From contig QEVV01000011.1 in assembly GCA_003228115.1 (NCBI GenBank), forward strand, positions 1-64,000: a stretch of DNA of 64,000 nt, read 5' to 3'. Positions within the stretch are counted from its first letter, which is position 1. Every line of letters begins with the position of its first letter. Of this stretch, positions 33,076 through 61,205 are shown in pieces. A model generated the notes under the pieces. That model was not told where the DNA came from and did no database searches. It was given only the letters and a program-made list of their open reading frames with translations. The stretch is from Chloroflexota bacterium (GTDB taxonomy: Bacteria > Chloroflexota > Dehalococcoidia > Lucifugimonadales > SAR202-VII-2). The position numbers were made by a program, and so were the translations under genes.

Positions 33076-33303
33076 GTAAACCCTAGCCTCTGTCGACCCC
33101 ATAGCCGGGTCTATCTATCGCTACTGGAGGGAGAACCCGTCGCAGGCGAGCTGGTTTTAACTCAGGTGAATCTGCGACTTCGTCTGGGGATCGAATCTCG
33201 TTCGACGCCACGTCGGTCTACAGGGTTTACCCACGCCTACCCAAATCTACACGCTGATCAGAAGGACGTCGGTCACTTTCCTAAGCACCGTAACACCTCT
33301 CCA

Positions 33304-33383
33304 AAGCTGCTATGAGCCCGAGCGAACGCCCCAGCCCATCAACCCCAATGGTTTCCGATGTGTAGTAGCCCACCCTCATATCG
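33304..33383 (-). pseudogene. Inverted remnant of the 50-aa propeller repeat
   Basis: Read on the minus strand this gives VGYYTSETIGVDGLG and GLIAA, about half of one repeat unit of the lipoprotein at 58095-59618. No start and no surrounding frame remain. Confidence 0.7.
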
Positions 33384-33543
33384 CGGTGCCGGTTGCTTAT
33401 CCTAGTCTCCGTCTATTTTAGGGAAGGATTTTTAGACGTTCCTAGAGACTCGCGACCGACCACGCTGGGGGATGGCTGTGTCCAGACACATCTATGGTTC
33501 GGAGGAATCCCAGTAAGCTCGAAGCAACCAAAGAACCCTACAA

Positions 33544-39728: not shown

Positions 39729-40209
39729 ATGAAGTTCCTTTTGCCAGTTTGCCTTCTGCTCGCAGCATTGCTGCTCGTCGTTTCCTGTTCAGGCTCCGTA
39801 GGAGAGGATGGACCACGTGGTCAACAGGGAGTGGCGGGAGAGCAAGGTGACCAGGGACACCAAGGCCCCGCTGGTGCTACTGGCGCCGAGGGTGCCCAGG
39901 GGGAGCAGGGTAAGACCGGAGCCACCGGTGCACAGGGCTCGATGGGGTTGCGGCGGTTCCCGGGAACCACGGGTTCTGCGGGAGCGGATGGAACAGATGG
40001 AGCCACGGGCTCTGCGGTGTATCGTGCGATACCCGCTGACAACACAACAACCACCCTGGACAGCGAAGGGAGTGTGGGCCGGGACATATCCGATAACCAT
40101 TGGGGCTGATGGACTTGGCCTCATCAGCTACTGGGACCTTACCAACGCTGACCTAAAGGTAGCCCACTGCGAAAACGCCTTCTGCTCACCGCATTTTAGG
40201 CGGAGATAG
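39729..40209 (+). pseudogene. Truncated, frameshifted copy of the collagen-propeller lipoprotein
   Basis: The first 30 residues ([20 protein letters not shown] and on) and the last 20 ([17 protein letters not shown]) are the same as in the intact gene at 58095. In between, the collagen-like stalk is shorter and only one propeller unit remains. A one-base insertion near 40085 puts the C-terminal part in another frame. About 60 bases upstream of the ATG are also conserved between the two loci. This is a deletion derivative or a seed copy of the larger gene. It ends just before a tRNA-like 3' end. Confidence 0.85.
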
Positions 40210-46557: not shown

Positions 46558-46640
46558 GCAGTGCTGCAAGCAGATCAGCGTCTGTTCCCTTGAGTCAATC
46601 CAGCTATGGGGAATTAGTTGCAATGGGGGAGGGTATTGAG

Positions 46641-49600
46641 ATGGGACCAAAGTCCATATCGCTACTCCTGCTACTCGCAGCATTAACAGTGATGCCGACA
46701 GGTTGTGCGGGTACTCAGACGGCAGATACCCCGGCCCCTGAGGCCAAAGTGGTGGCGAAAGAAAGGGGTAAGGCTACCACTCAGGCAGCGCCTACGCCCG
46801 CACCGATACCTGAGCTTATCGCAACACCAACAGCTGTGCCCCCGATCGCTCCTACAACTACGCCGATGCCCCCAGCCACACCGACTCCAACTCCTAGTGA
46901 ACCCCGCTACAGCGAGGATTTCGAAGACGGCCACGCCCAGGACTGGTCGTTAGGAACCGGCTGGCAGATGTCCAAGGAGGATGGAAACACGGTGCTGCTT
47001 GGTCGAGACCATTACTGGGCGAACCTGACTCGAGGAGCTGACTGGACCGACTATGCGTTCAAGTTCCGTCTTAAAGTGCGCTCCGCGGCCGTGCATCTCA
47101 ACTATCGAATAGGGGCAAACCCATTCTCGCGCTACTTCCTCAGCTTTAGTAAAGAAAGACTCACCCTGACCAAGCAGCTTGGGGACGACTTCACTGACAT
47201 GACGGATAATCGGACTTCCTATCGTCTGAACACCTGGCACACGGTGGAGATCAAGGGTTTTGCAGGGCACCTGCAGGTGTTGGTAGACGGCGTGCTCGAG
47301 CTGGACCTGACCGACGAAGAGCCTTTGCTCCAGGGAACGATCGCCTTCGAGTCCCTCCCCGGCTCCGAGGCCCTCATCGACGATATCGAGATTTGGCGAC
47401 TCACCGAGCCCCTGACCACACCGACTCCAACACAGGCGCCACCGCCACCCATACAGAACAGCCTCGCAGGATCAGTTACGGACCTCTCCAGCGAATGGAT
47501 CGATCCTACCGCCGACCACAACTACACATATCAGGATCGAGACGAGGTACCTATAGCCTCTCATATTGTGATCTCTGGTCCCGACTCCAGCGGGTATGTA
47601 ACCGTCACAGGGGCACCTGGGGCCATACCAGCCAGCGCGGGAATAACCCGGAAGGACAGGCTCCGCCTCGCCAGTGTCGACTGGGGAGTGGAGACCTGTG
47701 TCTCCTACAATCGGGACGGATCGTTTTCCGCACGTCTACTGGCCGGTCCGGGAACAACCATTATCTTGGGAGCCGTGGTCGAGGCCAGTTGTCAAGGCCA
47801 GTGGATTGAAAGCATGGCCTCTGCGCTCGTCCGTGTACCTGAGGGTGTTAACCATGAAGACCCGTCCGTGCCATTCTCCATCTCTGGTCGCCTGTGGTCG
47901 GCTACGGGAGAGCTACAGGGGAACGCTCCGCATATGGAGATCAAGGTGTCCGCCGCTGATCCTTTTGGATGCCTGGTTCCACGGCTACACATCTACCGCC
48001 TGTTTGACGAGCATGGGGAGTACGCTGGACAGGTCAACCTGAACGTCCACGGACCCGTGATGACCCCTACCGGTCAGCCTATAGAGACTGACCAAGGCCC
48101 ACAGGGGTACTGGGATTTAATCAAGCCCCTTTCCTCACCGTGCCTGAAAAGCTCCTTATCTCGCTATGAACTAGGAGACTGGACTGCCTCGTTGGAGCCT
48201 GGATGGTATGGGCCTCGACTTGCCTTTTACACCGTCGACCCTGTCGATCCCAGAATAGAGCACCTCCAGGAGAGCTTGTCCCAGCCGCTCTTCGGCGTTG
48301 AGGCGAACACGCACATTGGCTACCTACCTCTCCTCAAGGTTGGATCCGCGCAGACGCTGCAGATTCCAGCGACGTTGTTGAACGAAAGCGTGAGCTGGGG
48401 CTCGGGCGGAATTCGAGGTATCGTCGCCAAGGAAGACGCAGAGCGCTTCGCCCTCGGGAGTCGCAGGTCTGCACAGGGCCCGTTTATCGCGTCGCCCAGA
48501 GACCCTCTATCTGGAAGACGTCTAACGTACCTACTGGAGCCCTATCTGCCAACCATCGCCTACACAGGTTTCACTCACCTTCAGCCACAGATCCCGCTGA
48601 TTGCTCTCGATGAGTCGTCACTTGGGTGGATCTCCGTGTCACTCACCAAGCCAGGGGGAGAAGCAATGGTGCTGGCGAGCAAGGCGCCGATCGTCCAATC
48701 CTTTCTCTCCGGGTCCCAAACCAACGCCTATCCAGTCGAACTCTCGTTCGCCGGGCCTGGCAGGACCTACGGCGTGACGACAGGTCTTGACTCTTTGGAG
48801 GTCGAATTCGACCAGTATGGGCTCCACACGGTGCAACTGGAGGGCATCTTGCGCACCCTGTGGGGGCAGGAACTCGAGATAAGAGGCACGTATGAGGTCT
48901 GGGTCGCCGAGCCCCTGGACCTGTCCCTCGGGACATTCGAGGGTACGCCCTTGGAGGTGGGAGACCAATGGAGCCCGGTGGTGGTGATCGAGCCTGGGGT
49001 GCCAGCGCAAGTGGGGGTCACCATCGACCACTATGTTGATGGGGATCCAGGCAAGAAGAGGTCCTTCAGTACGACCGGAAACGCAAACGCCTTCGGCTAT
49101 TTTGTCGCAAACGACACTTGGGCTCCGGATGCGCACGGTGAGTACATTACGCGGGTGATCGCGAGCTACACCGACCCGGAAGACAGCACGTTGTGGATGG
49201 GCTCAAGGGCTGGGGCGTCTATTGTGGCTACCCCCCGTTCGCCCTTGGTGGCCCATGGAGTACGGGATTCCCAGATCGCCGTCAGTCTCCGGGAACAGCA
49301 CCAAATAGACGACACCGTTCTCCGCCCATGGTTCATTTTACGTTCCTTCGACATTGAACCCATTGGTCTCGAGTATCCATTCTTCAGAGGTGACATCGCC
49401 TGGCTGGAGGATGCGCGGCCGATCGGGCCTTTCATAACGCTGGATGATCCCCAGGGGGTTCTTGCCACTATCGCACCTCAGGTAGCGGCCAATCGCTTCT
49501 GGGATGTAGGTGGCCATGGGGTCGAGGCCTCAGACATGAAAAAGCTCACGATGCAGACGACGGTCGGCCAGGGAGGTCAACACCGGAAAGATGCAATAGA

Positions 49601-50810
49601 TTCCTGGGGTTACTGGTATGCAAGTGCTGTTCGTCCTGACATCAGCATTCAGCATACGGTTTCGGAAATAGGAGCATTCCATGACCACTGGTACGGTCAC
49701 GACTCCTACAACTGTCAGATTGGCCTACCCTGCTTTGGAGCGTGGTTGTCTGCAGACCAAGGCGGTCGCAACGGTGATGAAGAGGGTGACATAAAACTGC
49801 TCTTTGGTGGGGCGGTCATCAAGAACGCTGATGAACAGTACTTTGTGCCCTATGCCAGCATGGCGACGATCATCCCTGAGCCACTCATCGACCCTGCGAC
49901 TGGGATGTTGGTCCCAAGAGACCCTCTAGGCTCGCGAATCTGTCCGCCTTACCAGGGGGCTGCTGGCGGGCTCGCGACGTGTGGTCCTATCCTGAACATC
50001 CAGGGCAGAGACGTCGACCTGTTCGTCACTCCAACCGGGACTCGCCCCGGATCCGTTCTCGAAATAGGCGATAGATTCGTTTTCAGCGGCCAGGCATGGC
50101 CCACTCTAGACGTCGGAGTTGAAATTACGGTCACTGGACCGAGTGGCAAGGTTCACTCAGCTTCGGGCAGGGCCAACCAAATAGGATACATCGATGGTAA
50201 AGACAAGGCCTTTGTCGTTGAAGAACCTGGAGTATACGTCGTACACGTAGCGCTGACCCAGGATAGGCCGGTGCCGTCAACAGGCCTAGCGCCGGATCCG
50301 CCCGTAGTTGCAGACGGGCAAACGCTCCTCAGCGAATACGGTTATAGCAACCCACTCTCCGCCATCCTGGGGTCCCTCGACTCCACTTATCGGTTCTTCG
50401 TGGTCGAGTCGAGCTACGACGTGCCCGCCAAGACCCAGATAGAGTTAGGAAAGTATTATCAGGACGAGTGGACCTGGCATAGAGTCCCCAGTTCGATAAC
50501 GGTTACATTCGCTTTCCCTGCTGGAGCGAAGCCAGCGTGGCAAACCGTGACCATCCCAGGCCTCATAATAGCGGATGGGGCCGTATCTGAGGATGCCTCT
50601 GAGTTGACGGTCAGACTGGACAGGGAGGACCTGTACACCCAGGGTTATACCAATGTGGTCCTAGGAGCCGAGTCCTTGGAGATCACGGTGGTGGGTACCC
50701 TTAACGGCCAATGGTTTGCCAAGGTGGTGAACTTGCGAGGCGTATCCCCACTTGGAGGGGCACCGGCCACGGTTGTGATTTCGGACATCGAGAAGCGCCC
50801 GGGCCGGTAG
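46641..50810 (+). CDS. Very large beta-rich surface lipoprotein with lectin-like domain
   Basis: About 1389 residues from ATG 46641, which has GGAGGG eight bases upstream; the frame is open from TTG 46590. A signal peptide ends with lipobox TGC. A Pro/Thr linker follows, then a concanavalin-like (LamG / 3-keto-disaccharide hydrolase-like) domain from YSEDFEDG to LIDDIEIWRL. The remaining roughly 1100 residues are beta-rich with Ig-like strands (QVGVTIDHYVDGDPG, VEITVTGPSGKVH) and a His/Asp-containing central part. I do not recognise a family for that part. It is probably cell-surface anchored. Confidence 0.8.
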   Translation: MGPKSISLLLLLAALTVMPTGCAGTQTADTPAPEAKVVAKERGKATTQAAPTPAPIPELIATPTAVPPIAPTTTPMPPATPTPTPSEPRYSEDFEDGHAQDWSLGTGWQMSKEDGNTVLLGRDHYWANLTRGADWTDYAFKFRLKVRSAAVHLNYRIGANPFSRYFLSFSKERLTLTKQLGDDFTDMTDNRTSYRLNTWHTVEIKGFAGHLQVLVDGVLELDLTDEEPLLQGTIAFESLPGSEALIDDIEIWRLTEPLTTPTPTQAPPPPIQNSLAGSVTDLSSEWIDPTADHNYTYQDRDEVPIASHIVISGPDSSGYVTVTGAPGAIPASAGITRKDRLRLASVDWGVETCVSYNRDGSFSARLLAGPGTTIILGAVVEASCQGQWIESMASALVRVPEGVNHEDPSVPFSISGRLWSATGELQGNAPHMEIKVSAADPFGCLVPRLHIYRLFDEHGEYAGQVNLNVHGPVMTPTGQPIETDQGPQGYWDLIKPLSSPCLKSSLSRYELGDWTASLEPGWYGPRLAFYTVDPVDPRIEHLQESLSQPLFGVEANTHIGYLPLLKVGSAQTLQIPATLLNESVSWGSGGIRGIVAKEDAERFALGSRRSAQGPFIASPRDPLSGRRLTYLLEPYLPTIAYTGFTHLQPQIPLIALDESSLGWISVSLTKPGGEAMVLASKAPIVQSFLSGSQTNAYPVELSFAGPGRTYGVTTGLDSLEVEFDQYGLHTVQLEGILRTLWGQELEIRGTYEVWVAEPLDLSLGTFEGTPLEVGDQWSPVVVIEPGVPAQVGVTIDHYVDGDPGKKRSFSTTGNANAFGYFVANDTWAPDAHGEYITRVIASYTDPEDSTLWMGSRAGASIVATPRSPLVAHGVRDSQIAVSLREQHQIDDTVLRPWFILRSFDIEPIGLEYPFFRGDIAWLEDARPIGPFITLDDPQGVLATIAPQVAANRFWDVGGHGVEASDMKKLTMQTTVGQGGQHRKDAIDSWGYWYASAVRPDISIQHTVSEIGAFHDHWYGHDSYNCQIGLPCFGAWLSADQGGRNGDEEGDIKLLFGGAVIKNADEQYFVPYASMATIIPEPLIDPATGMLVPRDPLGSRICPPYQGAAGGLATCGPILNIQGRDVDLFVTPTGTRPGSVLEIGDRFVFSGQAWPTLDVGVEITVTGPSGKVHSASGRANQIGYIDGKDKAFVVEEPGVYVVHVALTQDRPVPSTGLAPDPPVVADGQTLLSEYGYSNPLSAILGSLDSTYRFFVVESSYDVPAKTQIELGKYYQDEWTWHRVPSSITVTFAFPAGAKPAWQTVTIPGLIIADGAVSEDASELTVRLDREDLYTQGYTNVVLGAESLEITVVGTLNGQWFAKVVNLRGVSPLGGAPATVVISDIEKRPGR

Positions 50811-50980: not shown

Positions 50981-52903
50981 CTACTTGCCTTGCAGTTCGC
51001 TGAATTCTTTCTCAGTTAGTGGCAGTGCCAACAAGAAGGCTTCAAGAGCGGTCAGCTCGGCGTCAGAGAGGTGCGATGTTGTCCCGTGGCTATCGTCGAT
51101 ATTGAAGCCTACAAGCACGTCTCTCAGTATCATCGCCCGGCCATCATGCAGGTAAGGAGCCGTCAGCCAGAGCTCCCGAAGACTAGGGGTGTCAAACGCA
51201 GTTCCCATTCTCTCAGCTATCTTCTCGCCTATGTTATTTGGATCATCGTGAAATGGTTCTCCCGTGCCCACATCGTGCATCTGTTGGTCAGTGAACCGTG
51301 GCGGGCTGTGGCAAACAGCGCAGCCTGCGCGTTGAAAAACGTCAGCGCCCTCGATTGCCGCCTGCGGAAGAGCGCCGTCCGGCTCTCGTAGAGGGCTGGT
51401 GAAAGGCTTAAGGTTGTTCAGATAAGCAGCCAGTGCATCAAGGTCTAACTGGGAGAGACCCGTTCCACCCATCAGTTCAGTGAACGTTTTCTGGAACGAC
51501 TGCACGTTAGGCCGATCCCCTGACCAGTGCAGTGGCCCGGTGCCACCGATGCCTCTGAGGATAGGAGTATTGCGTGCCCCATCGTTAGTTCCTAACCAGA
51601 TCTGGCCATCAGAACCGCCGTTGAAGTGGCAGGAAGCGCATGCTATCCAGTTGTCCCGGGCAATCTTGTCCGGACGGCTGGTGAAAAAGATCCGTTCCCC
51701 CTGCTGGATGATGGCCGGTCGTGGGTCGTGGGCCAGGGCAAGGGTGTCCACCACGGTTAGCGTATCGGTGTCCACCACGCTGATGTCGTCGGAGACCAGG
51801 TTGAGCGTGTACAGGCGTTTCCCATCTGGTGAGAGAGCTAGGTCGCGAGGATGATGGCCGACGACCACATGCCCTACTCCTAGACCCTGAGCCAAGTCGA
51901 CCACGGAAAGATCATCGCTTACGGCATTAGCCGTGTAGAGACGCGTCCCATCGAGGCTCAGAACGACGGCGATGGGCATGCTCACTGGCGAGTCCACCGA
52001 ATCCAGGGCCAGCGCCTCCCTCCTGATGGGCCGTAGCTGCTCGGTATCCAGGGTGCTGACCATGGGGAACACAGTGTTATCGAATAGCCTTGCCATGTTG
52101 GTGACGTGTTGGCGCTGATGTGGAACGTAGGCGCGGCTCCGGTCCGGGTGGAGGGTCGCGCTTTCGGCCAAGGCCGCCTGGAGCCCTATTTGAATGGCAC
52201 CCAGCGGGGCCAACGTTTGGGCATCGTAGACTCGCAAAGAGGTGTCAAGCAGGTGGACCACATACAACCGGTCCTTCTTCAGGGCTAGCCCCCGTGGTTG
52301 TCGGCTTGTGGCGGTGCGTGCTATCTCAGCCAAGGTATCGGCACGCAGAGCGAGCAGAGCCCCTTCGTGGGCCAAGGTCACGTACACGCGACCCGCGGCA
52401 ATGAGTACGCCATAAGGCCCGTGGCCCACCCAAACCCGTGCCAGGATCTCACCACTCTCATCGCTAAGGACGACCAACTCGCCTGAGTCGAAGCAAGCTA
52501 CGAGCAGGCGCGACTCTGCGCGTGCCAAAGTCGCTGGATCGCACCCAATCTCGGTCTGCCACTCCCGCTGGCCATCGGGCAGGCCTAGGCGGGTGACGGT
52601 GTGGCTGGTAGGGTGGCCAGCCCATAGGGCATCATCGTTAACTATAATCCGCCTGCTGCGTAGCGTGTGTTCAGGCGGCTGGAAAGGCGGGATGGAGGCA
52701 GAGGTGGCTGCTGGCTGAGGGGTTGACGCAGGAGGGGACGTGCTCATTGGAGAGACCATCGGCAGGGACAAAGGCGTCGCTGTCTGCAAACGAGAGGCCA
52801 TAGGCGTTGCCGTGGGAGTAGGCGACGACGCTGGCATGGTACACGCTGCCAGTAGCACGGCACCTAGTGCAAAAACAAAGGACCAACATGAGGCTCCGAC
52901 CAT
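50981..52903 (-). CDS. YVTN-type beta-propeller fused to a di-heme cytochrome (MauG-like) lipoprotein
   Basis: About 640 residues. A lipobox LLAAC anchors the protein; a Pro/Ser/Thr linker and a YVTN-like propeller follow (repeats such as LSPDGKRLYTLNLVSDDISVV). The C-terminal third has two c-type heme sites, CASCH and CAVCH, in a MauG/di-heme peroxidase-like layout with the later HDVGTGEPF and LWLTAPYLHDGRA. ATG 52903 is preferred to 52945 because a TATAAT lies only 6 bases upstream, which also suggests a leaderless message. It is probably an extracytoplasmic redox enzyme. Confidence 0.87.
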   Translation of the reverse strand: MVGASCWSFVFALGAVLLAACTMPASSPTPTATPMASRLQTATPLSLPMVSPMSTSPPASTPQPAATSASIPPFQPPEHTLRSRRIIVNDDALWAGHPTSHTVTRLGLPDGQREWQTEIGCDPATLARAESRLLVACFDSGELVVLSDESGEILARVWVGHGPYGVLIAAGRVYVTLAHEGALLALRADTLAEIARTATSRQPRGLALKKDRLYVVHLLDTSLRVYDAQTLAPLGAIQIGLQAALAESATLHPDRSRAYVPHQRQHVTNMARLFDNTVFPMVSTLDTEQLRPIRREALALDSVDSPVSMPIAVVLSLDGTRLYTANAVSDDLSVVDLAQGLGVGHVVVGHHPRDLALSPDGKRLYTLNLVSDDISVVDTDTLTVVDTLALAHDPRPAIIQQGERIFFTSRPDKIARDNWIACASCHFNGGSDGQIWLGTNDGARNTPILRGIGGTGPLHWSGDRPNVQSFQKTFTELMGGTGLSQLDLDALAAYLNNLKPFTSPLREPDGALPQAAIEGADVFQRAGCAVCHSPPRFTDQQMHDVGTGEPFHDDPNNIGEKIAERMGTAFDTPSLRELWLTAPYLHDGRAMILRDVLVGFNIDDSHGTTSHLSDAELTALEAFLLALPLTEKEFSELQGK

Positions 52904-52945
52904 CGACCTATTATAGCGGGCAAGCTGGCCCACGCCTTTGCTCAC

Positions 52946-58000: not shown

Positions 58001-58094
58001 CGATTTTCCACCTGACTACCATTCAAGTTAGGCGATAAGCACGCACCGTGCCTGAATCGAAACCCTCATCCCTTCCCTGACTATCGGGAGATCC

Positions 58095-59618
58095 ATGAAG
58101 TTCCTTTTGCCAGTTTGCCTTCTGCTCGCAGCATTGCTGCTCGTCGTTTCCTGTTCAGGCTCCGTAGGAGAGGATGGACCACGTGGTCAACAGGGAGCGG
58201 CAGGAGAGCAAGGGGCTCAGGGAGACCGAGGCCCCGCTGGTGCTACTGGTTCGCAGGGAGAACAGAGTGAGCAGGGTAAGACCGGAGGCACGGGGGCAAC
58301 CGGAGCAACGGGTGCCGTAGGCCCTGGTGGGTCTACTGGACCTGCTGGGAGTCAGGGAGCACAGGGTTCTCAGGGCGAGACCGGGGCTAGCGGTGAGTCT
58401 GGGGCTACCGGTGCAACAGGAAATGCGGGTGCGCAGGGAGCACAGGGGGAGACCGGGGCTACCGGTGAGGCCGGGGCTACGGGGAGTGCGGGACCGGATG
58501 GAGCAGCAGGGCCATCGGGGTCTGCTGCGTATCGTGCGATACCCGCTCTCAACACGATAAGCACCCTGGACAGCGATGGGAATGTGGGCTGGTACACGTC
58601 GGTGACCATTGGGGCTGATGGGCTGGGCCTCATCAGCTACCAAGACGCCACCAACGGTGACCTGAAGGTAGCCCACTGCTCGGATGCTGCCTGCACGGTT
58701 GCCACAAAGACTATTCTCGACAGTGCAGGGGATACGGGCTGGTACACCTCGGTAACCATTGGGGCTGATGGGCTGGGCCTCATCAGCTACCAAGACGCCA
58801 CCAACGGTGACCTGAAGGTAGCCCACTGCTCGGATGCTGCCTGCACGGCGGCCACAACAACCACCCTGGACAGCGATGGGTGGGTGAATTCGAACACCTC
58901 GATAACCATTGGGGCTGATGGGCTGGGCCTCATCAGCTACTACGACAACATCAACGCTGACCTGAAGGTAGCCCACTGCTCCAATGCTGCCTGCACAACG
59001 GCTACAACGGCCACCCTGGACACCGATGGGGAGGTAGGCGGGCACACATCGATAACCATTGGGGCTGATGGGCTGGGCCTCATCAGTTACTCAGACAACA
59101 CTAACCGTGACCTCAAGGTAGCCCACTGTTCGAATATTGAATGCACGGAAGCGACAACAGCCACCCTGGACAGCCAAGGGGATGTGGGCCAGTACACCTC
59201 CATTACCATTGGGGCTGATGGGCTGGGCCTCATCAGCTACTTCCACTGGAGTAACGACGAACTGAAGGTAGCGCACTGCTCCAATGCTGCCTGTACGGCT
59301 GCCACAAAGACTACCCTGGGCGGCGAAAGGGGCGTGGGCTTTTACACATCGGTGACCATTGGGGCTGATGGGCTGGGCCTCATCAGCTACGTCGACTACT
59401 CCAACCATGAACTGAAGGTAGCCCACTGCTCCAATGTTGAATGCACAGAGGCCACAACGGCCACCTTGGACAGCGCAGGGTATGTGGGCGTTTACACATC
59501 GATAACCACTGGGGCAGATGGGCTGGGCCTCATCAGCTACCGAGACGTCACCAACGCTGACCTAAAGGTAGCCCACTGCGAAAACGCCTTCTGCTCCCCC
59601 CATTTCAGGAGGAGATAG
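58095..59618 (+). CDS. Lipoprotein with collagen-like stalk and seven-repeat propeller head
   Basis: A 507-residue surface protein. The signal peptide ends in lipobox VVSC (about Cys20). Residues about 25-150 are an uninterrupted series of Gly-X-Y triplets rich in GAT, GAQ and GET, as in bacterial collagen-like stalks. Then come seven tandem 50-residue units (150-nt period), each with [19 protein letters not shown] and a second Cys four residues later. Seven equal beta-rich units with a cysteine pair per unit suggest a seven-bladed propeller with one disulfide per blade. It ends with FRRR. Likely a cell-surface adhesin or binding protein. Confidence 0.85.
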
Positions 59619-59949: not shown

Positions 59950-60062
59950 GCCACCTCTGTACAGGTCACATTCGAGCAGTGCGCACCTTCAAGTCACTGT
60001 TGCTAGAGTCTAAGTAGCTGATCAGGCCTAGCCCATCAGCCCCAATGGTTACTGATGTATCC
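59950..60062 (-). pseudogene. Inverted remnant of one propeller unit
   Basis: On the minus strand it reads [22 protein letters not shown] and DLKV; then after a one-base shift AHCSNVTCTEVA and a stop. It is a single broken copy of the unit in the adjacent gene, in opposite orientation, with no start. The remainder of the 59.62-60.24 kb gap has no gene. Confidence 0.75.
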
Positions 60063-60242
60063 CTTTACGATGTATCCCTTGAGGTCTTGCGCTGCGGAAA
60101 TCGCTTCTGTGGCCCCACGCCTCCACCAGTGGTGATTTCACCCTTAACGGCTAGGAGTCCGATGGAGGTTTTGTAGTAAGTGAATGTTTGATAAGATACC
60201 TGGGCATGCAAGCATAAAAAGTGGGTACAAGGAGGTCAGCAT

Positions 60243-60701: not shown

Positions 60702-61205
60702 CCTACGTCCCATACGATAACTACCCTGGACCGCGAAGGGGATGTGGGCTAGTACACATCGATGACCATTGGGAATGATGGGCTGGGCCTCATCAGCTAC
60801 TACGACTACACCAACCAGGACCTGAAGGTAGCTCACTGCGGGAATGTTGCCTGCACGAAAGACCCGTTCACGCCCACCGTTCAGATCGAATTAGGTTTGC
60901 TTCCCCCGTCGGTCCTCTTGGACGACTACCTGAGGCCGAGCACAGACACCCTCGCCTATGCACACCGCGACGTATGGGAATCCGAAGCCACCGTGACGAA
61001 GTTCTTCATTGCCACAGAGACAGGAAGCTACGATATCGGCTATTCGCTAGCGGGAGTCGCAGTTGCTGAGTTGGATATCGTGGTCACTCGGCACGTACCC
61101 GTCGTGCCCCTACCAGGCGCAGGTGATACCAACGGTGACAACAACGTAGACGTCCTCGACCTGGTCACCGTGGGGAGCAACTTGGGTAATTACTACGGGC
61201 CCTAA
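60702..61205 (+). pseudogene. Propeller unit plus dockerin-like tail with in-frame TAG
   Basis: The frame starts ITTLDREGDVG, then a TAG at 60750-60752 where the intact gene has a Trp codon, and continues [20 protein letters not shown].. with DLKVAHCGNVAC. After that it is unlike the other copies: a Thr/Val-rich domain and a C-terminal dockerin-like calcium motif, GDTNGDNNVDVLDLVTVGSN. No start codon or signal peptide precedes it. A shorter gene could start at ATG 60762, but without a secretion signal this is unlikely. Confidence 0.7.

Follow-up and report, generated by a model that had tools for sequence, protein, structure and literature searches.

A putative lipoprotein of a Chloroflexota bacterium with a collagen-like stalk, a predicted seven-blade propeller head and signs of blade turnover

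The window analyzed in this study (the whole stretch of DNA, 64,000 nucleotides of contig QEVV01000011.1 of a Chloroflexota bacterium) carries a gene, at positions 58095–59618 of the forward strand, whose product joins a lipobox, a collagen-like tract and a series of repeated units in a single chain. The locus raises the question of what such a protein might do, and of how the number of its units relates to the evolution of the units themselves. The analysis supports the view that the parts are of known kinds and that what is new is the combination of stalk and propeller, together with a nearly locked number of blades in the face of blade turnover.

Anatomy of the gene and predicted fold of the head

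The gene (ATG at 58095, stop codon at 59616–59618) encodes a product of 507 amino acids, whose features are listed in Table 1. A scan of the locus for promoters and terminators gave nothing above the level of shuffled sequences.

Table 1. Coordinates of the gene, its parts and the other blade-unit copies in the window
Feature	Positions	Strand	Basis or remark
Shine-Dalgarno-like GGGAG	58086–58090	+	Sequence; identical bases precede the second copy at 39729
Signal peptide and lipobox LVVSC, putative lipid-anchor Cys20	58095–58154	+	Sequence
Collagen-like stalk, residues 22–144, 41 triplets, one Gly replaced by Ser	58158–58526	+	Pfam, NCBIfam, repeat analysis
Linker, residues 145–153	58527–58553	+	Sequence; low pLDDT at model residues 1–5
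Blade unit 1	58554–58703	+	First strand (residues 154–159) read as closing strand of the last blade
Blade unit 2	58704–58853	+	88% DNA identity to unit 1, 94-base exact tract
Blade unit 3	58854–59003	+	Repeat spacing, AlphaFold2 model
Blade unit 4	59004–59153	+	Repeat spacing, AlphaFold2 model
Blade unit 5	59154–59303	+	Repeat spacing, AlphaFold2 model
Blade unit 6	59304–59453	+	Repeat spacing, AlphaFold2 model
Blade unit 7	59454–59603	+	Repeat spacing, AlphaFold2 model
C-terminal FRRR and stop	59604–59618	+	Basic C-terminus recurrent in the family
Broken second copy: near-identical signal peptide, short collagen stretch, one frame-split blade, FRRR	39729–40209	+	
Isolated blade unit, in-frame TAG at variable position 13	60702–60860	+	
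Inverted, decayed blade-unit fragment	59954–60064	−	
Weak decayed blade-unit fragment	33284–33412	−	

A sequence-only reading of this DNA had claimed a lipid anchor, about 125 residues of Gly-X-Y and exactly seven 50-residue units, each with a Cys-4-Cys pair, and all three elements were found. The lipobox follows a hydrophobic stretch, and by this signature the protein is a lipoprotein, with putative acylation. The stalk consists of two Gly-X-Y runs (12 and 28 triplets) separated by a single SEQ triplet; the Collagen model of Pfam matches it with an E value of 1.8e-16 (60.1 bits against a cut-off of 27.2; best stretch, residues 22–75), and a near-uninterrupted Gly-X-Y tract in an exported protein is the feature by which bacterial collagen-like proteins are recognized. 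The units start at residues 154, 204, 254, 304, 354, 404 and 454 (six spacings of 50) and span residues 154–503, Tandem Repeats Finder reports a period of 150 (6.8 copies, 0% indels), and every unit has its two cysteines at positions 42 and 47, which accounts for all 14 of the propeller. Units 1 and 2, described earlier as almost identical at the DNA level, share 132 of 150 bases, for which that wording is slightly too strong, but have in common an exact tract of 94 bases (58605–58698); the longest exact runs in the other five adjacent pairs are of 24–38 bases. The architecture is more than chance, because it recurs in many genomes.

The head was modelled with AlphaFold2 together with 10 related heads. 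The resulting model (pLDDT 93.2, pTM 0.92) contains 28 strands (7 × 4), in which, according to DSSP, strand D of each blade is formed by the first six residues of a unit, so that the opening strand of unit 1 should complete the last blade. The completion of the last blade by an N-terminal strand is the usual way in which propellers are closed. DSSP found the first strand (model residues 10–15) to be paired, which we read as closure, and the head is therefore predicted to be a closed seven-blade beta-propeller, as the sequence-only reading had anticipated.

No credible Pfam or NCBIfam model covers the blade units, and the only Pfam families above cut-off on the whole protein are Collagen and DUF1936. 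The latter reaches 45.1 bits (cut-off 25), and was rejected as a repeat artefact because its best stretch within the repeats is of 13 residues and no stretch passes on its own. In the PDB, the only match by sequence was a weak one to LolA (E 0.13), which was likewise rejected.

Across 513 family units, the CxxxxC pair is present in 439 and both cysteines are missing from 72, with one unit containing a single Cys and one with another spacing. The pair is nearly always kept or lost together, which supports a predicted disulfide within the blade. Among the 49 seven-unit open reading frames (ORFs) described below, all seven units carry the pair in 43 and six of the seven in the other 6.

Distribution of the family and number of units

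The search for the unit in Chloroflexota proposed by the sequence-only reading located it there, and also in MAGs of other phyla. With the genome of the window included in each count, the family is present in 15 of the 59 genomes of a first sample, in 52 of 250 genomes of the order (E ≤ 1e-20) and in 7 of the 400 genomes of a phylum sample (E ≤ 1e-40). The 19 named loci belong to Chloroflexota MAGs (SAR202, Dehalococcoidia and others) and, as single loci, to MAGs labelled Thermoanaerobaculales, Nitrospira, Saccharibacteria, Nitrosopumilus, Jettenia, Brocadia, Spirochaetales and an unplaced bacterium; such taxon labels can be wrong.

Unit numbers were obtained by running a unit profile over all stop-to-stop ORFs of the fetched loci, and were counted in 56 distinct ORFs of at least 290 amino acids that were uncut by the end of a stretch and whose best unit scored at least 50 bits. 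A lipobox pattern was found in 38 of the 56, together with at least 10 Gly-X-Y triplets in 36, and at least two Lys or Arg are present among the last four residues in 37. The basic ends that recur directly after the last blade are FRRR, VRNR and FKR, while the second g66 paralogue ends with PYGG or PYGD instead. Some relatives, within and beyond the phylum, have no stalk or no Cys pair, and the head thus also occurs without these parts. In the Saccharibacteria MAG (locus L054, 1–4266), a seven-unit head is embedded in a longer protein, truncated at its start and not less than 1422 residues in length, the C-terminus of which is tail-fibre-like (PHROG tail fiber, E 8.5e-8).

The sequence-only reading had asked whether the number of units is always 6–8. 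Seven units are present in 49 of the 56 ORFs, the window protein included, and the exceptions have 4, 5, 5, 6, 6, 13 and 14, the last being a Nitrospira protein that amounts to two sevens. In a later phylum-wide sample, 11 of the 14 ORFs listed qualified by being uncut and no shorter than 290 amino acids; 9 of these have seven units, among them versions with Cys-less units of 47 residues, and the other two have 4 and 5. The set of 56 leaves out cut, short or weak ORFs, among them (i) ORFs with seven units that are cut (L047, L054, L060, L085, L099 and L119) or weak (the third ORF of L059, L082, L134 and L135), (ii) L053, where a stop divides the gene into 3 + 4 units, and (iii) L057 with 9 units (cut), L062 and L080 with 5, L083 and L084 with 6, L077 with 3 and L081 with 2. 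Some ORFs of the family have 3–6 units. In genome G148, a six-unit orthologue (L126, 2638–4401, minus strand) was found in a genus in which seven is the rule, and may reflect either a real deletion or an assembly error.

A five-unit paralogue from genome G026 was also modelled (pLDDT 91, pTM 0.88). The model has 19 strands, the first strand being unassigned and unpaired, and 244 residues superpose on residues 64–312 of the lectin PLL4 at 2.6 Å. The missing strand and this partial superposition make the paralogue look like an open five-blade arc, and this copy is predicted to fail to close. Its list of structural matches also contains many sialidases (Z about 20 to 21.5, 3.5–6.1 Å), which are six-bladed propellers. 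Taken together with the counts, we infer that selection keeps functional copies at seven. The three checks proposed by the sequence-only reading (structure prediction, search for the unit and count of units) all support that reading.

Probable blade turnover, and variation of the outer loops

The nearly constant number of units does not mean that the units themselves are stable. When blades were compared by position, the window protein had no positional orthology to any of 20 other seven-blade proteins (diagonal minus off-diagonal values at most about 0.03); orthologues within one genus keep such orthology (0.69–0.93 versus 0.40–0.42). Because it is absent from the window protein, its seven blades were probably re-amplified or homogenised after the split from every relative compared, with the reservation that for the more divergent pairs saturation could mask a positional signal.

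Comparison of the blades within the genome of the window (one genome, no alleles) pointed in the same direction. A 33-base core occurs there in 22 copies (up to 3 mismatches; 11 exact) on 5 contigs, as against 0 for a reversed-pattern control, and six of the seven window blades find their closest DNA match, alone or in a tie, in a blade from a different locus. Among the window blades, synonymous change (pS) in codons 18–29 is 0.06 versus 0.40 elsewhere, and a 12-codon minimum as low as this was reached in 4 of 2000 column shuffles. The dip is less marked in all 14 relatives, with 85 of 2000 shuffles for the ERR599008 protein, 133 for that of Thermoanaerobaculales and 260–1949 for the other 12. 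These patterns suggest an exchange of blades between loci, and the blades of the window protein would, judging by their sequences, turn over while their count holds at seven.

The remaining family loci of the genome lie on contigs C13 (two), C3 (two), C2 and C8. At least three own-genome loci are placed at contig ends, where assembly could distort the counts, so that the unit numbers within this genome are not all certain; copies with a number other than seven look broken or partial. Of the earlier statement that copy number is evolving, what stands is the existence of partial, broken and odd copies, whereas seven units, constant in number but with blades that turn over, are the usual condition.

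A second architecture was noticed, in which the conserved region [LI]ELGLLPPSV[IL]LDD comes after blade units and precedes an end that is dockerin-like, NGDNNVDVLDLVTVGSN (window 60762–61205; L066, 2–676; L068, 5276–5794, minus strand). In the window, the isolated blade at 60702 runs into this IELGLLPPSV...dockerin-like tail, for which Pfam gives dockerin only at E 0.09. The piece at the start of C13 may be the N-terminal half of a gene of this architecture, severed by the contig end.

According to DSSP, the loops of the model occupy unit positions 7–10 (D-A), 20–24 (A-B), 32–35 (B-C) and, as counted, 43–50 (C-D). Four antiparallel strands per blade place the D-A loop on the same face as the B-C loop. 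From this strand topology the stalk should enter on the opposite face, where the N-terminus, the C-terminus and the Cys loops would also lie in the model. The D-A and B-C (outer) loops of the seven window blades show a pN/pS of 0.389/0.311 and a dN/dS of 1.37, compared with 0.42 for the A-B and C-D loops and 0.44 for the strands. From 20 own-genome blades, 3 with a non-repeat N-terminal part were dropped, and the resulting 17 gave 1.58 for outer loops, 0.63 for other loops and 0.59 for strands; the values were 1.48, 0.50 and 0.54 with the 16 blades in register, i.e. without the blade of L067, which has an insertion and is partly out of register. Site bootstraps of the outer-loop dN/dS extend over 0.61–3.30 (7 blades), 0.79–2.90 (17), 0.67–3.02 (16) and, with rim positions, 0.90–2.28. 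Because these intervals include 1, diversifying selection on the outer loops is suggestive at most.

A comparison with random columns gave a related result. The outer-loop pN of the window protein was matched by 8 random columns in 52 of 5000 draws, and that of 14 relatives in 3 to 1252 of 5000. A between-blade excess (at most 5% of draws) was seen in 9 of the 15 proteins, the window protein included, and no clear excess in the other 6; this comparison used only units that have both cysteines in place and no indels, so that 11 of the 15 proteins are under-represented (4–6 of seven units, or 13 of 14).

Between orthologues, the picture is mixed. An outer-loop excess was obtained for the main g66 paralogue (0.405 versus 0.276 for the rest; 3 of 5000 draws), in which strand D, at 0.456, and the C-D loop, at 0.405, are no less variable, and for the G044/G007 pair (0.268 versus 0.153; 160 of 5000). 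The excess is weak in the second g66 paralogue (0.403 versus 0.346; 463 of 5000) and there is none in f17 (0.263 versus 0.280; 3223 of 5000). Positive selection was accordingly rejected as a general feature of the outer loops between orthologues; these loops separate the blades of one protein more than they separate orthologues.

The rival reading that draws most on these data is a recognition receptor diversified by recombination, which would be the counterpart, on the surface of bacteria, of the fungal HNWD propellers, and in which the shuffling of blades among paralogues would alter the outer face and serve the discrimination of kin, phage or prey rather than the binding of a single fixed ligand. 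The dispersed core, the best matches at other loci and the synonymous dip speak for it, and the loops that vary are those that vary in HET-D/HET-E of Podospora (PMC1805685). We nevertheless regard it as unlikely, given that the dN/dS interval includes 1, that the core signal is weaker in every relative and that unit number is mostly fixed, while the repeat number of HNWD proteins ranges from 2 to 15 in a table of that paper (Table 2).

Proposed function and comparison with known systems

The reading that we prefer, and consider fairly probable, is that of a multivalent adhesin or recognition head carried on a trimeric collagen stalk, i.e. a lipid-anchored surface "lollipop". It would operate as follows: (i) the chain would be exported and lipid-anchored at Cys20, (ii) three chains would form a triple helix of the collagen type, which keeps the heads at a distance from the membrane, (iii) each chain would end in a closed seven-blade propeller, the ring being shut by the N-terminal strand and each blade pinned by its Cys-x4-Cys disulfide, (iv) the strand order would put the disulfide loops and the C-terminal tail on the same face as the stalk, leaving the D-A and B-C loops, the most divergent between blades, on the outer face, (v) this outer face would probably be a multivalent binding surface for glycans or proteins of other surfaces, making the head an adhesin or a recognition receptor, and (vi) blades would be homogenised and exchanged within and between the several gene copies of the genome, while selection would hold functional copies at seven blades. 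In this scheme, the anatomy of the sequence, the spread of the family, the unit counts and the missing positional orthology of the blades are observed and the ring is predicted, whereas ligand binding by the head, the trimer, the disulfides, the facing of the loops, the exchange of blades between loci and the selection for seven blades are presumed. A stronger version is offered tentatively, as possible rather than probable: in it, Dehalococcoidia-type bacteria would display a trimeric collagen-stalk receptor whose head changes as blades are exchanged with paralogues and with isolated blade remnants, the outer loops being under diversifying selection, as a seven-locked bacterial counterpart of the HNWD proteins, by which fungi recognize non-self.

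The genomic setting was compared for 12 loci and the window. Neighbours are common only within genera, with one exception: a presumed dehydrogenase-like protein is encoded beside the family gene in both G044 and G007, and a relative of it lies 13 kb away from the window gene. With so few conserved neighbours beyond the genus, operon partners were rejected, and the gene fits a stand-alone surface protein. At the g66 locus the neighbours are metabolic and redox genes. The window also contains two other lipoprotein-like ORFs, one of 1406 residues with a Pro-Thr-rich start (46590–50810) and one of 654 residues (50981–52945, minus strand), the latter presumably a propeller of the YVTN type that carries two CxxCH motifs for c-type haem.

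A stand-alone gene with few conserved partners, and a propeller that occurs also without a stalk, could also belong to a structural spacer or coat protein that has no specific ligand and in which the ring would merely cap the trimer or act as a building block of a matrix. In such a protein, neither the concentration of between-blade change on one face nor the near-constant seven blades would be expected, and we judge this explanation unlikely.

A stalked extracellular propeller enzyme, either a lyase or a glycosidase, appears improbable. The structural scores in its favour are high: VIA-align 2 places CylK at the top (Z 36.2, 2.8 Å, 340 aligned), followed by virginiamycin B lyase (Z 33.1, 2.8 Å, 298 aligned) and PLL4 (Z 32.6, 2.5 Å, 316 aligned), and polysaccharide lyases and sialidases also score highly. 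These matches are a likeness of fold, and a shared fold shows no function. No enzyme family of Pfam or NCBIfam reached its cut-off, the sialidase Asp-box (SxDxGxTW) was found in 4 of 513 family units, the outer loops vary between blades, and the near seven-fold symmetry seems to leave no obvious unique active-site residues. The cation loop DxDxDG of VCBS/integrin-type propellers was found in 0 of 513 units.

Collagen-like and tail-fibre-like stalks occur in phages, and the Saccharibacteria relative has a tail-fibre-like C-terminus, but a phage-derived receptor-binding domain co-opted by the cell is very improbable, as 50,697 phage records gave no match at E 1e-5, viral contigs contain one confirmed locus, and the lipobox and the chromosomal spread within one order argue against it. 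PHROGs gave nothing usable for the window head, and the viral structure library gave generic propellers (7–17% identity among the matches listed). Prophage collagens are mentioned in the abstract of PMC3368898.

If the adhesin or recognition-head reading holds, a collagen-like stalk and an amplified propeller have been joined in one chain in widespread uncultured bacteria. The family would also offer a natural experiment on the preference of propellers for seven blades, since most copies keep that number although their blades are overwritten, and the paralogue with five units is predicted to stay open. With its approximate seven-fold symmetry and possible disulfides, the stalked head could moreover be of practical use as a scaffold that displays seven variable sites per chain.

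The pairing of a collagen stalk with a propeller was not found in the literature searched, the titles and abstract openings of which describe neither a collagen-propeller protein nor the blade repeat. In PMC3192720, the one paper in which Chloroflexi, a propeller and the word "collagen-like" occur together, passages use that word only for an integrin peptide ligand; the words propeller, collagen-like and stalk appear together in PMC6750898, on a tectivirus vertex.

Like the adhesins Scl1/Scl2 and Lcl, the window protein has an exported Gly-X-Y stalk and a separate domain, but it differs from them in its C-terminal propeller head and in having a lipobox instead of LPXTG. The NCBIfam Scl2 model matches residues 22–144 with an E value of 1e-21, and the Scl1/Scl2 and Lcl-type models remain far short of their curated cut-offs (77.4/325, 75.1/400 and 62.8/500 bits).

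Passages of Pereira and Lupas (2022, PMC9218822) describe recently amplified propellers that arose independently from single blades in many lineages, with a median of seven blades in WD40-like lineages. The window head resembles these in its probable amplification from single blades and in the typical seven; the words "collagen", "disulfide" and "PLL" do not occur in the main text of that paper.

For the WD repeats of HET-D/HET-E, passages of PMC1805685 and PMC2873952 report concerted evolution within and between loci, and the former places four selected codons in the d-a loop and b-c turn. The window protein is like them in that its blades resemble one another, that exchange seems to take place within one gene and among paralogues, and that change is concentrated in the d-a and b-c loops. 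HET-D/HET-E are intracellular NLRs with WD40 units in variable number, whereas the window protein is exported and mostly seven-bladed, its positive selection is suggestive only, and no WD40 model was among its Pfam matches at E ≤ 1.

By Foldseek, the closest structural likeness is to the PLL-family lectins of Photorhabdus (PLL, PHL and PLL2-5), which also have seven blades of four strands each. The best 21 Foldseek matches listed against the PDB are all seven-bladed sugar-binding lectins of this family (E 1.7e-15 to 2.8e-13, TM 0.73–0.82, identity 12–16%), and phmmer of PDB sequences at E ≤ 1 retrieved no PLL chain. The window protein differs from these lectins in its lipid anchor, its collagen stalk and the Cys pair in every blade; in PHL, according to passages of PMC5584973, a disulfide joins two subunits. 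The same passages place Trp-based fucose sites between blades, in the half of the propeller with the termini, and galactose sites in the other half. The conserved Trp of the fucose sites are absent from the window head, which has only four, scattered at positions 13, 13, 10 and 32 of units 1, 2, 3 and 5; for this reason the PLL fucose site is considered missing and membership of the PLL family is not claimed. By analogy with these lectins, it is possible that the window head works like a multivalent lectin.
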